64,000 bases of DNA from Hydra vulgaris (lineage: Eukaryota; Cnidaria; Hydrozoa; Anthoathecata; Hydridae), in assembly GCF_038396675.1 (NCBI RefSeq), contig NC_088929.1:29251501-29315500 (forward strand), in the 5' to 3' direction. A model generated the notes under the pieces. It made no database searches. It saw nothing but the letters and a program-made list of their open reading frames with translations, and was not told the origin of the DNA. Below, in pieces: positions 2,599 to 26,845 of this stretch (the stretch's first letter is position 1; every line of letters begins with the position of its first letter). The translations under genes were made by a program, and so were the position numbers.

Positions 2599-2616
2599 AT
2601 GGAAAGCCCTCTTAAG
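2599..2616 (+). CDS. TRIM37: Exon 1 of the TRIM37-like gene (start codon, MESPLK)
   Basis: ATG at 2599 gives MESPLK and is followed by a good donor, AAG|GTAAAT. It ends in phase 0, matching exon 2. With this exon the RING's first cysteine is residue 14, compared with 15 in human TRIM37, which supports the start. The exon is very short, so the call leans on phase, donor and length agreement. Confidence 0.5.
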
Positions 2617-26600: not shown

Positions 26601-26845
26601 GCTTGTTGCTTATGAACAATTGTATAATTGAAAATGTAGTCGAAGCGTTGAATATTGAAGACATCATTGAGAACAATCTAGAACGACACTGTCAGAAGAA
26701 ATCGAATCTTGAAGAATCAATTTGTCAGTTGAAAGAAATGGGTTATGACAATAGTAATGGGAGGTTGCGCACATTGTTGATAATGAGTGGCTGCAGCTTA
26801 GATAAAGTGTTTGAGCTACTTAGTACTGATTTCTTCAAGTACTAG
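2599..26845 (+). CDS. TRIM37: TRIM37-like RING/B-box protein, predicted to end in tandem UBA domains (8 exons, 271 aa model)
   Basis: Spliced model: 2599-2616, 6480-6584, 6665-6705, 7545-7602, 9745-9836 (or its twin 10202-10293), 12294-12381, 15061-15132, 26504-26845. Total 816 nt, an exact multiple of three, ATG to TAA-type stop with every junction GT/AG and phase-matched. Residues about 15-55 form a RING with eight cysteines (CVIC, CNQC, CLEC, CPNC). A following [12 protein letters not shown] segment and the B-box (C-x2-H-x7-C-x2-C-x4-C-x2-C-x5-H-x2-H) match human TRIM37, an E3 ubiquitin ligase. TRIM37 continues with coiled coil and MATH domains, which I do not find. Instead two UBA-like domains follow about 11 kb downstream, so a ubiquitin-binding ligase is inferred. 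The RING/B-box part is strong; the join to the UBA exon is phase-compatible but unproven. Introns hold a piggyBac, a hAT, a long-TIR transposon and a SINE. Confidence 0.6.
3161..3247. repeat. Imperfect inverted repeat
   Basis: The arm beginning CTTATCTTTTGTATTCGAA pairs, with small gaps, with the arm ending ATACAAGACATAAG. It lies in intron 1. No coding content or target duplication is evident. Confidence 0.5.
3690..4320 (-). mobile_element. CR1/L2-like LINE fragment, C-terminal part of the reverse transcriptase ORF
   Basis: On the - strand, frames shifting at about 4150 read [10 protein letters not shown], then [19 protein letters not shown] and [19 protein letters not shown]. This is the characteristic post-RT segment of CR1/L2-type LINEs (LYKSLIRPCMEY..., LDKLQKRI...). 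Downstream in the element, at about 3700-3850, decayed reading resembles the usual end of the ORF. The fragment is 5'-truncated with frameshifts and sits in intron 1. Confidence 0.75.
4990..5823 (+). pseudogene. Tc1-family transposase pseudogene
   Basis: Encodes most of a Tc1/mariner transposase: an HTH-like start ([20 protein letters not shown]), the first catalytic region (WSDESKFNL), [10 protein letters not shown], and [12 protein letters not shown]. In-frame stops occur at 5191, 5491 and 5500. The second catalytic aspartate, normally in QQDNDPKH, is glycine (QQGNDPKH), so the protein would be dead even without the stops. Sequence at 6070-6105 (GGTCGGATAATTTTTTGATA) resembles a Tc1-type 3' terminal repeat. 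I did not find the matching left end. Confidence 0.85.
6107..6230. repeat. (TA)n microsatellite
   Basis: About 120 bp of nearly pure TA, directly after the presumed right end of the Tc1 remnant; TA is the target site of Tc1 elements. The Ile/Tyr open frame across it is meaningless. Confidence 0.95.
6375..6410. repeat. (CAT)n microsatellite
   Basis: Short CAT/ATC tract with a single interruption in intron 1, about 70 bp before the RING exon. Confidence 0.9.
6480..6584 (+). CDS. TRIM37: Exon 2 of the TRIM37-like gene: first part of the RING finger
   Basis: Acceptor TTTTTCAG, donor ACA|GTAAGA, phase 0 at both ends. Encodes 35 residues containing CVIC, then [15 protein letters not shown]. These give six of the eight RING zinc ligands. 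The spacing and the run DAR-M-C-x2-C-SKL-x-C correspond to TRIM37. Confidence 0.85.
6665..6705 (+). CDS. TRIM37: Exon 3 of the TRIM37-like gene: end of the RING finger
   Basis: Acceptor TTTTTTAG; encodes [13 protein letters not shown] plus two bases of an arginine codon. It supplies the last two RING cysteines (CPNC) and the W-x2-EQ pattern shared with TRIM37. The donor (GTTTAA) is weak. The intron before it is only 80 nt. Confidence 0.85.
7545..7602 (+). CDS. TRIM37: Exon 4 of the TRIM37-like gene: RING to B-box linker
   Basis: The first base completes the split arginine codon; then [19 protein letters not shown]. The EEL-x2-CRWA-x2-V pattern corresponds to the conserved segment right after the RING in TRIM37. 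It ends in phase 0 before GTACTT. The antisense open frame over this exon is a shadow. Confidence 0.8.
7999..8061. repeat. 26-bp direct repeat, about 2.5 copies
   Basis: Unit CAAGGTTCAACTGTTCTGTT plus CAACTT repeats with one mismatch. A separate ~30-bp duplication (AGTTTTTTACTTACAAAAGA) lies at 7802-7853. Both are in intron 4. Confidence 0.8.
8398..8597. mobile_element. Small repeat with CATAAATTACG inverted ends (MITE-like)
   Basis: Begins GTTCATAAATTACGC and ends GTGTAATTTATGGACTATCC, so the ends are inverted copies of each other. A second member, with much of the interior different, is at 11662-11819. There is no coding capacity. Probably a non-autonomous element. Confidence 0.5.
9217..9320 (-). 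mobile_element. SINE 3'-part fragment
   Basis: Read on the - strand it contains GAGTTGAGAGAGGGTTATAA followed by a GTAGCCT...CGTCCTCGGGAAG segment. The same blocks occur in the body of the full SINE at 19808-20040. The tRNA-like head is missing here. Confidence 0.6.
9745..9836 (+). CDS. TRIM37: Exon 5, upstream copy (5a), of the TRIM37-like gene
   Basis: Acceptor TTTTGGTCTAG, donor AT|GTATTA. 92 nt, phase 0 in and phase 2 out, exactly what exons 4 and 6 need. Encodes [20 protein letters not shown] and then [11 protein letters not shown], ahead of the B-box. An identical-looking copy lies 457 bp downstream. Because 92 is not divisible by three, only one copy can be used in frame. Confidence 0.65.
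10202..10293 (+). CDS. TRIM37: Exon 5, downstream copy (5b), of the TRIM37-like gene
   Basis: I see no difference from copy 5a across exon, acceptor or donor. If spliced after 5a it would be read out of frame and reach a TGA within about a dozen codons, so the copies should be mutually exclusive. One may be unused, or an assembly artefact. Confidence 0.6.
10706..10780 (+). other. Possible alternative terminal exon in intron 5
   Basis: A good acceptor (TTTATTTTCAG) is followed by 24 open codons ([20 protein letters not shown] and four more), a TAA, and AATAAA motifs overlapping and just after the stop. Its phase 0 fits directly onto exon 4. That would give a short RING-only isoform lacking the B-box. 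It could easily be chance. Confidence 0.2.
11662..11819. mobile_element. Second copy of the CATAAATTACG MITE-like repeat
   Basis: Starts TTTCATAAATTACATCACGC, has a G-rich interior (GGGTGGAGGGGGAAGG), and ends GGCGTAAATTCATGGACATT. The ends pair as at 8398-8597. Located in intron 5. Confidence 0.5.
12294..12381 (+). CDS. TRIM37: Exon 6 of the TRIM37-like gene: first part of the B-box
   Basis: Acceptor TTTTTTTTTAG, donor GGG|GTAAAT. Encodes [16 protein letters not shown] and then [13 protein letters not shown], six of the eight B-box zinc ligands. The KxSVFC-x-TC core matches TRIM37. The open frame continues past the donor to 12489, but that extension is low-complexity intron. Confidence 0.85.
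12671..14823 (-). mobile_element. piggyBac transposon (decayed) in intron 6
   Basis: The ends are CCCTTTGAG / CTCAAAGGG flanked by TTAA on both sides (12667-12670 or 12720-12723 on the left, 14824-14827 on the right), the piggyBac signature. The left end is present twice, 53 bp apart (CCCTTTGAGTGTGTGATAAA and CCCTTTGAGTGCGTGATAAA). The transposase lies inside in the opposite orientation to the host gene. Confidence 0.85.
12889..14623 (-). pseudogene. piggyBac transposase pseudogene (PGBD-like)
   Basis: The likely start is at 14623 ([14 protein letters not shown]). The N-terminal domain continues at 14424-14005. The catalytic core includes [19 protein letters not shown] and [10 protein letters not shown], then GIDNYYTS. 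A later frame (13396-12889) has [19 protein letters not shown]. Stops and frameshifts separate the blocks. The third catalytic aspartate, expected in an MGGVD motif, is tyrosine ([10 protein letters not shown]). The C-terminal zinc-ribbon region is present but cut. Dead element. Confidence 0.85.
15061..15132 (+). CDS. TRIM37: Exon 7 of the TRIM37-like gene: end of the B-box
   Basis: Acceptor ATTTTTCCAG, donor GAG|GTATTT, phase 0 both sides. It begins HFQHSFLPL, supplying the last two histidine ligands (H-x2-H) of the B-box started in exon 6. The remainder ([15 protein letters not shown]) lines up with the stretch after the TRIM37 B-box. The split zinc site supports the exon 6-7 join. Confidence 0.8.
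15133..17000 (+). other. Intronic AT-rich sequence (start of the large intron 7)
   Basis: No coding exon seen in any frame with supporting motifs. GC-rich GGCGCCGCGG at about 16459 belongs to a short repeat also seen near 23520 (CTGCCAATCCTAGAGACAGC type). The open frames at 16319-16818 are T-rich and look spurious. Confidence 0.5.
18837..18890. repeat. Short-loop palindrome
   Basis: Arms of about 23 nt (AAAGTTACTTTTTCAAAGTT and its complement) flank a ~7-nt loop within the transposase remnant. Confidence 0.85.
19808..20040 (+). mobile_element. tRNA-derived SINE
   Basis: The 5' head resembles a tRNA: A-box-like GTGGTGTAGTGGTAGAGCGC, anticodon-loop region CTTTATAAG, and B-box-like GGTTCCGAGTTCAATCCCC. 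It lacks an intact anticodon stem. A body of about 120 bp follows (GAGTTGAGAGAGGGTTATAA, GGCCTTCTCGGCCTTGG) and ends in an A-rich tail. Related copies are at 42497-42666 (-) and 9217-9320 (-). The head could be from an Ile- or Ala-type tRNA; I cannot decide. Confidence 0.8.
20191..20770 (+). repeat. Direct repeat of about 207 bp, period 374
   Basis: TATGGGGAAATACAAATTAA through CTTATATAAAGCATGGAA occurs at 20191-20399 and 20565-20770 with only a few differences. The 165 bp between them is unique here. Either a tandem duplication missing the end of copy two, or two ends of a small element. Confidence 0.85.
23046..25016 (+). other. Intronic AT-rich sequence
   Basis: Nothing I can assign. It includes a TGGGACCC-type stretch at 23240-23330 (CCCAGCTCAATCTCAGCTGG), a ~42-bp direct repeat at about 24072-24150 (AAAGAAACTTTTCTTTTTAT-like), and a GC-richer stretch at 24660-24850 of unknown origin. 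That stretch might be the eroded end of the neighbouring piggyBac. Confidence 0.4.
25017..25113. repeat. Two adjacent short-loop palindromes
   Basis: 25017-25057 has 15-16-nt arms (ACCTGTAGCTTGC / GCAAGCTACAGGT). 25073-25113 has 14-nt arms (TTCCTGCTATGCAG / CTGCATAGCAGGAA). They lie end to end, at the point where the piggyBac remnant is broken. Confidence 0.85.
25057..25861 (-). pseudogene. Second piggyBac transposase remnant
   Basis: On the - strand the N-terminal DDE-like domain reads [20 protein letters not shown] (25540-25460), preceded by [20 protein letters not shown] (25800-25740). A downstream block reads [19 protein letters not shown] and VGTIIKNKK (25200-25120). The part between them, with two catalytic aspartates, is missing. 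It differs in sequence from the 12.7-14.8 kb copy, so it belongs to another subfamily. Confidence 0.7.
25862..26503 (+). other. End of the large intron before the UBA exon
   Basis: AT-rich, no coding signal. GTCTTGCGTTTACTGGG at 25942 resembles the end of the MITE-like element at 36098-36218. Confidence 0.4.
26504..26845 (+). CDS. Terminal exon encoding two UBA-like domains
   Basis: Acceptor ATTTTTCAG, then 113 open codons to the stop at 26843-26845. Two repeats share the UBA pattern: [20 protein letters not shown] ending NVVEAL, and [20 protein letters not shown] ending KVFELL. The MGF/MGY loop and C-terminal leucine helix are typical of UBA domains, which bind ubiquitin; tandem UBAs end proteins such as plant NBR1. 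The first in-exon codon is phase 0, so it can splice to exon 7 of the RING/B-box gene. It could instead be the last exon of a separate gene whose upstream exons I have not found. An AATAAA at about 27239 could serve as poly(A) signal. Confidence 0.7.
   Translation, partial: ANSDLNQDESNVEKLVFQLQDMGFENSYGKLRSLLLMNNCIIENVVEALNIEDIIENNLERHCQKKSNLEESICQLKEMGYDNSNGRLRTLLIMSGCSLDKVFELLSTDFFKY

Follow-up and report, generated by a model that had tools for sequence, protein, structure and literature searches.

Encoded in a 64,000-nucleotide stretch of the Hydra vulgaris genome (contig NC_088929.1, positions 29,251,501–29,315,500; referred to here as the window) is a protein predicted to join the RING and B-box of a TRIM37-type ubiquitin ligase to two C-terminal UBA domains. 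The gene is probably a TRIM37 paralogue whose coiled-coil and MATH part gave way to a duplicated UBA exon of the SQSTM1/p62 type. A first-pass annotation had proposed a fusion of RING, B-box and tandem UBA domains; its domain calls stand, whereas the join between the two halves is a prediction from the sequence, and the gene proves distinct from the canonical TRIM37 of this genome, with UBA domains of p62 type.

A RING and B-box of TRIM37 type

The gene model comprises eight exons (816 nt, Table 1) encoding 271 residues and a stop codon, which the earlier count of 272 codons had included; as had been claimed, all junctions are GT/AG with matching phases. Weak scores are found for the donors of exons 3 (0.5) and 5 (0.8) and the acceptor of exon 4 (0.1), the exon score being a home-made, weak and simple combination of codon and splice terms whose rankings serve as a guide only. 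Exon 5 lies inside an exact tandem duplication (9394–9844 and 9851–10301; 451 identical bases with a shift of 457), either a recent event or an assembly error. The model uses the copy at 10202–10293, for which the identical one at 9745–9836 can stand in. A message with both copies would meet an early stop at 105 residues, and one with neither at 81 residues. Located 33 nt 5' of the start codon, in the segment 2541–2598, is a splice-acceptor-like TTTCTAG, which we take to be a possible site for a trans-spliced leader as known in Hydra.

The identification of the N-terminal half as TRIM37-like is well borne out. The best match of the predicted protein in the PDB is the RING of TRIM37 (3lrq, E = 5.9e-16), followed by TRIM21 (E = 7.1e-7), and the match to 3lrq runs on through the CRW stretch behind the RING. 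Pfam reports zf-RING_2 at 31.1 bits (cut-off 27.3, E = 2.9e-7; in a control, exon 2 alone gave RING_2 at E = 0.007), and B_box at E = 4.8e-5 and 23.9 bits for the whole protein, 0.2 bits under the cut-off of 24.1, which exon 6 alone exceeds with 24.3 bits. By the usual zinc-ligand pattern, all eight RING cysteines are kept, as are all eight B-box ligands (C107, H110, C118, C121, C126, C129, H135 and H138).

The same genome (911.5 Mb on 15 contigs searched) contains a canonical TRIM37, situated on the contig of the window (labelled C10). A search with the RING–B-box part of the window protein gave ten matches, seven of them the window gene itself; the eighth (49% over 37 residues, E = 2.6e-4) marks a B-box exon at C10:29776036, and the remaining pair score poorly (E = 0.12 and 0.41). 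Eight of the ten, all on C10, thus have E ≤ 2.6e-4, and clear similarity is confined to the window gene and the canonical TRIM37. Counterparts of window exons 2, 3, 4, 6 and 7 lie at C10:29752911–29779714, exon 2 being 53% identical to its counterpart across the tblastn stretch. The canonical exons measure 102, 41, 58, 91 and 69 nt and those of the window 105, 41, 58, 88 and 72 nt; these lengths differ by whole codons only, so that the phases are the same and the exon structure is shared. Exon 7, whose canonical homologue is at C10:29779646–29779714, is in phase 0 at each end in both genes.

Downstream of these exons in the canonical gene are two coiled-coil exons (29793868 and 29805870) and four MATH exons (open reading frames (ORFs) from 29812689 to about 29820730), all located by sequence patterns; joined, the MATH pieces match Pfam MATH_2 (E = 1e-18) and MATH (E = 2.5e-10). 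Measured from exon 2 as far as the most distal MATH exon located, the gene extends over about 68 kb, within which canonical exon 5, and at least one further coiled-coil exon expected between exon 7 and 29793868, were not found. When the canonical exons served as queries, each of the five from the RING to exon 7 recovered its counterpart in the window gene (E = 3e-3 to 9e-10); the window yielded no match to either coiled-coil exon or to any of the four MATH exons (best E = 0.36). The first-pass statement that neither domain follows in the next 11 kb therefore holds as far as these six exons test it. No coiled coil is seen after the B-box in the model (two canonical exons tested), which makes the protein TRIM-like and no full TRIM by the strict definition, and the MATH domain of TRIM37 subfamily A was not found in the window (four canonical MATH exons tested).

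As a canonical TRIM37 with coiled coil and MATH is present separately, the window gene is a diverged paralogue, and its 'missing' MATH domain is a difference between paralogues. Across 64 positions of the RING, 50 residues are common to the canonical protein and human TRIM37, and the window protein has 32 in common with the canonical protein and 30 with the human one, indicating that the window paralogue has changed most.

A terminal exon with tandem p62-type UBA repeats

Exon 8 is built from two repeats. Its halves align with a score of 115, which none of 5,000 shuffles reached, and they differ most at third codon positions. Among the six families reported by Pfam on this exon, four are UBA families, and none of ten shuffles reports one; single unrelated families reached E = 0.03–0.17 in the shuffles, so that a lone Pfam match at this level carries little weight, and a sequence search against the PDB gave chance matches only. 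The assignment was settled by the search of the genome and by fold comparison, which point to homology with UBA domains and a three-helix fold with an MGF/Y loop. The fold list also holds doublesex and EF-Ts, and the fold alone therefore does not show ubiquitin binding. The two UBA-like domains that had been noted in this exon are thus confirmed, and their type can be added.

A genome search with exon 8 returned the exon itself and four relatives, three on contig C5 (E = 6.3e-7 to 9.9e-6) and one on contig C12 (E = 0.0023). Identity to repeat 2 is 51% for the C5 exon of L027, 49% for that of L028 and, measured on a longer piece, 45% for that of L026. In Pfam, L026 shows PB1 (E = 4.6e-5), ZZ (E = 2.9e-11) and UBA_5 (E = 5.8e-9), and against the PDB its UBA hits human sequestosome-1 (E = 2e-6). 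All three are SQSTM1/p62-like genes, L026 having been put to Pfam and L027 and L028 having ORFs closely similar to it. They lie within 54 kb (C5:35883639–35937547), a local expansion. The C12 relative (L029, C12:27976034–27976165) is another p62-type UBA exon, on which Pfam reports no UBA family.

In a tree of 13 UBA domains over 42 columns (rows L004–L006 trimmed by five residues per end because of stops there or nearby), both repeats join the p62 UBAs and that of C12 in one group (96/97), apart from six other UBAs that score over the cut-off, and the repeats are sisters (96/95); most remaining branches are weak. A loop longer by two residues is common to the p62-type UBAs and both repeats. 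Repeat 2 is identical to the three p62 UBAs of the genome at 20–21 of 42 positions and repeat 1 at 16–17, compared with 5–11 identities in 28–40 compared columns for the six other UBAs; to human p62 each repeat has just 10 of 41 identities. By grouping, loop and identity, both repeats are of the p62 type.

Exon layout agrees with this assignment. In the three p62-like genes the UBA is in the last exon, of 65 codons, which starts in phase 0 from its AG, and in L026 the preceding exon also ends in phase 0 (both read by eye); exon 8 is likewise a phase-0 terminal UBA exon. The possibility that it belongs to a copy of a p62 gene was rejected, since the ZZ ORF of L026 finds nothing in the window at E ≤ 5 and the PB1 piece reaches a best E of 0.19.

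The predicted exon 7–8 join and its alternatives

Between exons 7 and 8 is an intron of 11,371 nt, of which a single inserted element accounts for 7,128 nt, leaving 4,243 nt of other intron; distance is therefore no argument against the join. The element carries nested long inverted arms (17392–18065/21690–22303). A Pfam scan of plus-strand stop-free stretches in 15133–16444 and 23572–26503 found no family at E ≤ 1; it covered 42 of the 44 stretches of at least 22 residues outside simple sequence, omitting two short ones near 24.4 kb and the 7.1-kb element. A minus-strand piggyBac remnant is weakly visible in the non-element part of the intron (E = 0.05). By the simple exon score, exon 8 ranks highest among the plus-strand candidates listed for 15133–45000. 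A candidate intermediate exon ending at 26306 was set aside; among the AGs listed for it, a single one gives phase 0, 12 nt before the donor. The junction 15132|26504 and the architecture that would result from it are predicted, and a fusion of exons 7 and 8 is the most economical reading.

We consider it unlikely that two genes are present, a shortened RING and B-box gene that stops within intron 7 plus a separate small tandem-UBA gene that would begin at 26280–26306 (MYISESILE) or at another short exon. Such an exon, opening with ATG and closing in a strong phase-0 donor (GTAAGT), does lie 197 nt 5' of exon 8, and looser donor limits give 15 or 24 ATG–donor pairs outside the 7.1-kb element; yet at 0.172 strong sites per kb, chance would produce about 0.73 in the 4.24 kb of intron outside that element, and the context of this ATG (T at −3) is weaker than that of exon 1 (G at −3, G after). 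Read-through of exon 7 would reach a stop five codons on, and subfamily A includes proteins with RING and B-box and no MATH domain (PMC3503706), both of which favour two genes. However, exon 7 has a good phase-0 donor at a position conserved in the canonical TRIM37, which requires a partner, and between exons 7 and 8 there is no other identified coding piece, transposon parts excepted.

Two further readings are very improbable. The window could hold an ordinary TRIM37 seen incompletely, with its coiled-coil and MATH exons more distant or with exon 8 as an alternative last exon, and introns are long in this genome, as the 68 kb of the canonical gene illustrate; but the coiled-coil and MATH exons that were found lie about 475 kb off, preceded by their own RING and B-box exons, none of the six matches in the window, and clear similarity in the RING–B-box search is limited to the two genes, MATH copies not having been searched genome-wide. 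Equally far-fetched is a decaying duplicate, in which an old TRIM37 copy and an unrelated relic of a p62 exon would make no protein. The fast divergence of the RING (32 of 64 positions shared with the canonical protein, against 50 of 64 between canonical and human), the transposons in the introns and the duplicated exon 5 would suit decay, against which stand eight exons that are all open and in phase, retained zinc ligands, length differences of whole codons only in the five compared exons, and third codon positions that vary most between the UBA repeats.

Elsewhere in the window, 45839–46909 holds a long mariner-type transposase ORF (356 residues; HTH_48 and Transposase_1). A plus-strand stretch at 61230–61406 with FNAAQTFYLVWNSINDPLFGYLQ has no Pfam match; it is reminiscent of an MFSD13A/TMEM180-like transporter and is perhaps part of the next gene. 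The region 26846–64000 was covered as 141 stretches, five pieces being put to Pfam and the rest read by eye. ARAGORN and Rfam (gathering thresholds) found nothing in the window, NCBIfam gave nothing, and searches of viral and prokaryote contigs gave 3 and 21 pattern matches, none of which is a relative.

Table 1 Features of the window gene and its surroundings (window positions unless a contig is named; G+C content of the window, 28%)
Feature	Position	Strand	Remarks
Exon 1	2599–2616	+	Start codon, MESPLK; ATG context GAAATGG, donor GTAAAT
Exon 2	6480–6584	+	First part of RING: C14, C17, C28, C31, C36, C39
Exon 3	6665–6705	+	Final RING cysteines C51, C54; 41 nt, equal to canonical gene
Exon 4	7545–7602	+	TRIM37-type stretch after RING; 58 nt, equal to canonical gene
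Exon 5, copy 1 of two identical	9745–9836	+	
Exon 5, copy 2 of two identical	10202–10293	+	Linker to B-box
Exon 6	12294–12381	+	Most of B-box; Pfam B_box E = 3.5e-5 for the exon alone
piggyBac-type element	12720–14827	−	Intron 6; inverted ends TTAACCCTTTGAG; DDE_Tnp_1_7 on minus strand
Exon 7	15061–15132	+	Last B-box histidines H135, H138 and linker; phase-0 donor
7,128-bp element	16443–23570	.	Inside intron 7; short inverted ends, long internal inverted arms
Alternative first exon for exon 8	26280–26306	+	MYISESILE, donor GTAAGT, phase 0
Exon 8	26504–26845	+	Two p62-type UBA repeats (MGF from residue 180, MGY from 237) and stop
UBA repeat 1	26531–26656	+	
UBA repeat 2	26702–26827	+	
AATAAA	27239–27244	+	Possible poly(A) signal; string match only
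Canonical TRIM37 (L017–L024)	C10:29752911–29820728	same as window gene	About 475 kb downstream

Proposed origin and role, and comparison with known systems

In the proposed history of the fusion, TRIM37 would have been duplicated on the same chromosome-scale contig to give a paralogue that then diverged, retaining the RING, linker and B-box exons (2–7) with ancestral phases where these can be compared. The coiled-coil and MATH exons would have been lost, and a phase-0 terminal exon of the p62/SQSTM1 type acquired and its UBA doubled. In TRIM37 the RING is described as serving transfer, the B-box assembly, and the MATH domain and coiled coils the binding of targets such as Centrobin and Cep192 (PMC12724674). 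By analogy, the RING of the window protein would load E2~ubiquitin, the B-box, perhaps with the UBAs, would bring copies of the protein together, and the tandem UBA would bind ubiquitin chains, taking over the targeting done by MATH and coiled coil in TRIM37. The protein could then gather on already ubiquitinated cargo and add more ubiquitin or hold the chains, as a reader–writer loop.

We infer both the ubiquitin binding and the ligase activity of the protein. Judged from its parts, its most likely role is that of a ligase recruited by ubiquitin, which amplifies or shields chains; a second possibility is UBA-mediated pairing in place of the lost coiled coil. Somewhat more speculatively, the gene may be a natural ligase–TUBE, in which the substrate-recognition part was swapped for a doubled UBA exon of an autophagy receptor, its product targeting and amplifying ubiquitin on cargo already marked, possibly in p62 bodies.

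With TRIM37 (subfamily A, class VIII) the window protein shares the places of the eight RING cysteines, the CRW stretch, a single B-box and the phases of the five exons compared, and it differs in that neither coiled coil nor MATH was found, in its two UBA repeats and in its length of 271 residues in the model. TRIM37-like genes lacking MATH have been described, in Dictyostelium and mosquitoes among others (PMC3503706); what is new is the tail on a TRIM37-derived RING–B-box. As in the selective autophagy receptor SQSTM1/p62, the UBA has the longer loop and occupies a phase-0 terminal exon; unlike p62, the window protein has a doubled UBA, a RING and a B-box, and no ZZ or PB1 match was found in the window.

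RING ligases with a C-terminal UBA include CBL and CBL-B, which differ from the window protein in having a TKB domain, proline-rich parts and a single UBA, and whose description includes no B-box (PMC11310040). The Cbl-b UBA is reported to prefer chains and Cbl UBAs to be able to pair mutually, and the UBAs are reported as dispensable for Cbl ligase function (PMC11310040). None of the titles and abstract beginnings found among open-licence papers reports a naturally occurring TRIM, or a TRIM-like protein, that carries UBA domains, and the single paper found on a TRIM with tandem UBA domains describes a man-made fusion (PMC7576197).

In its proposed working the protein would resemble these engineered ligase–TUBE probes, in which FLAG-TUBE on Parkin or TRIM28 joins a ligase to tandem UBAs; unlike the window gene, they are man-made and carry four RAD23A UBAs (PMC7576197). 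Tandem UBAs are described as strongly raising chain affinity, and ligases carrying them as retaining the products that they have themselves ubiquitinated; for TRIM28, the TUBE fusion yielded more candidates at the C terminus than at the N terminus (PMC7576197). Since a canonical TRIM37 and p62 relatives occur in the same genome, where the parts came from and how a writing enzyme acquired a reading domain become questions that can be tested directly in Hydra. If the fusion is real, exon replacement during evolution, drawing on two proteins of the ubiquitin and autophagy system, has built what laboratories make as a substrate trap.

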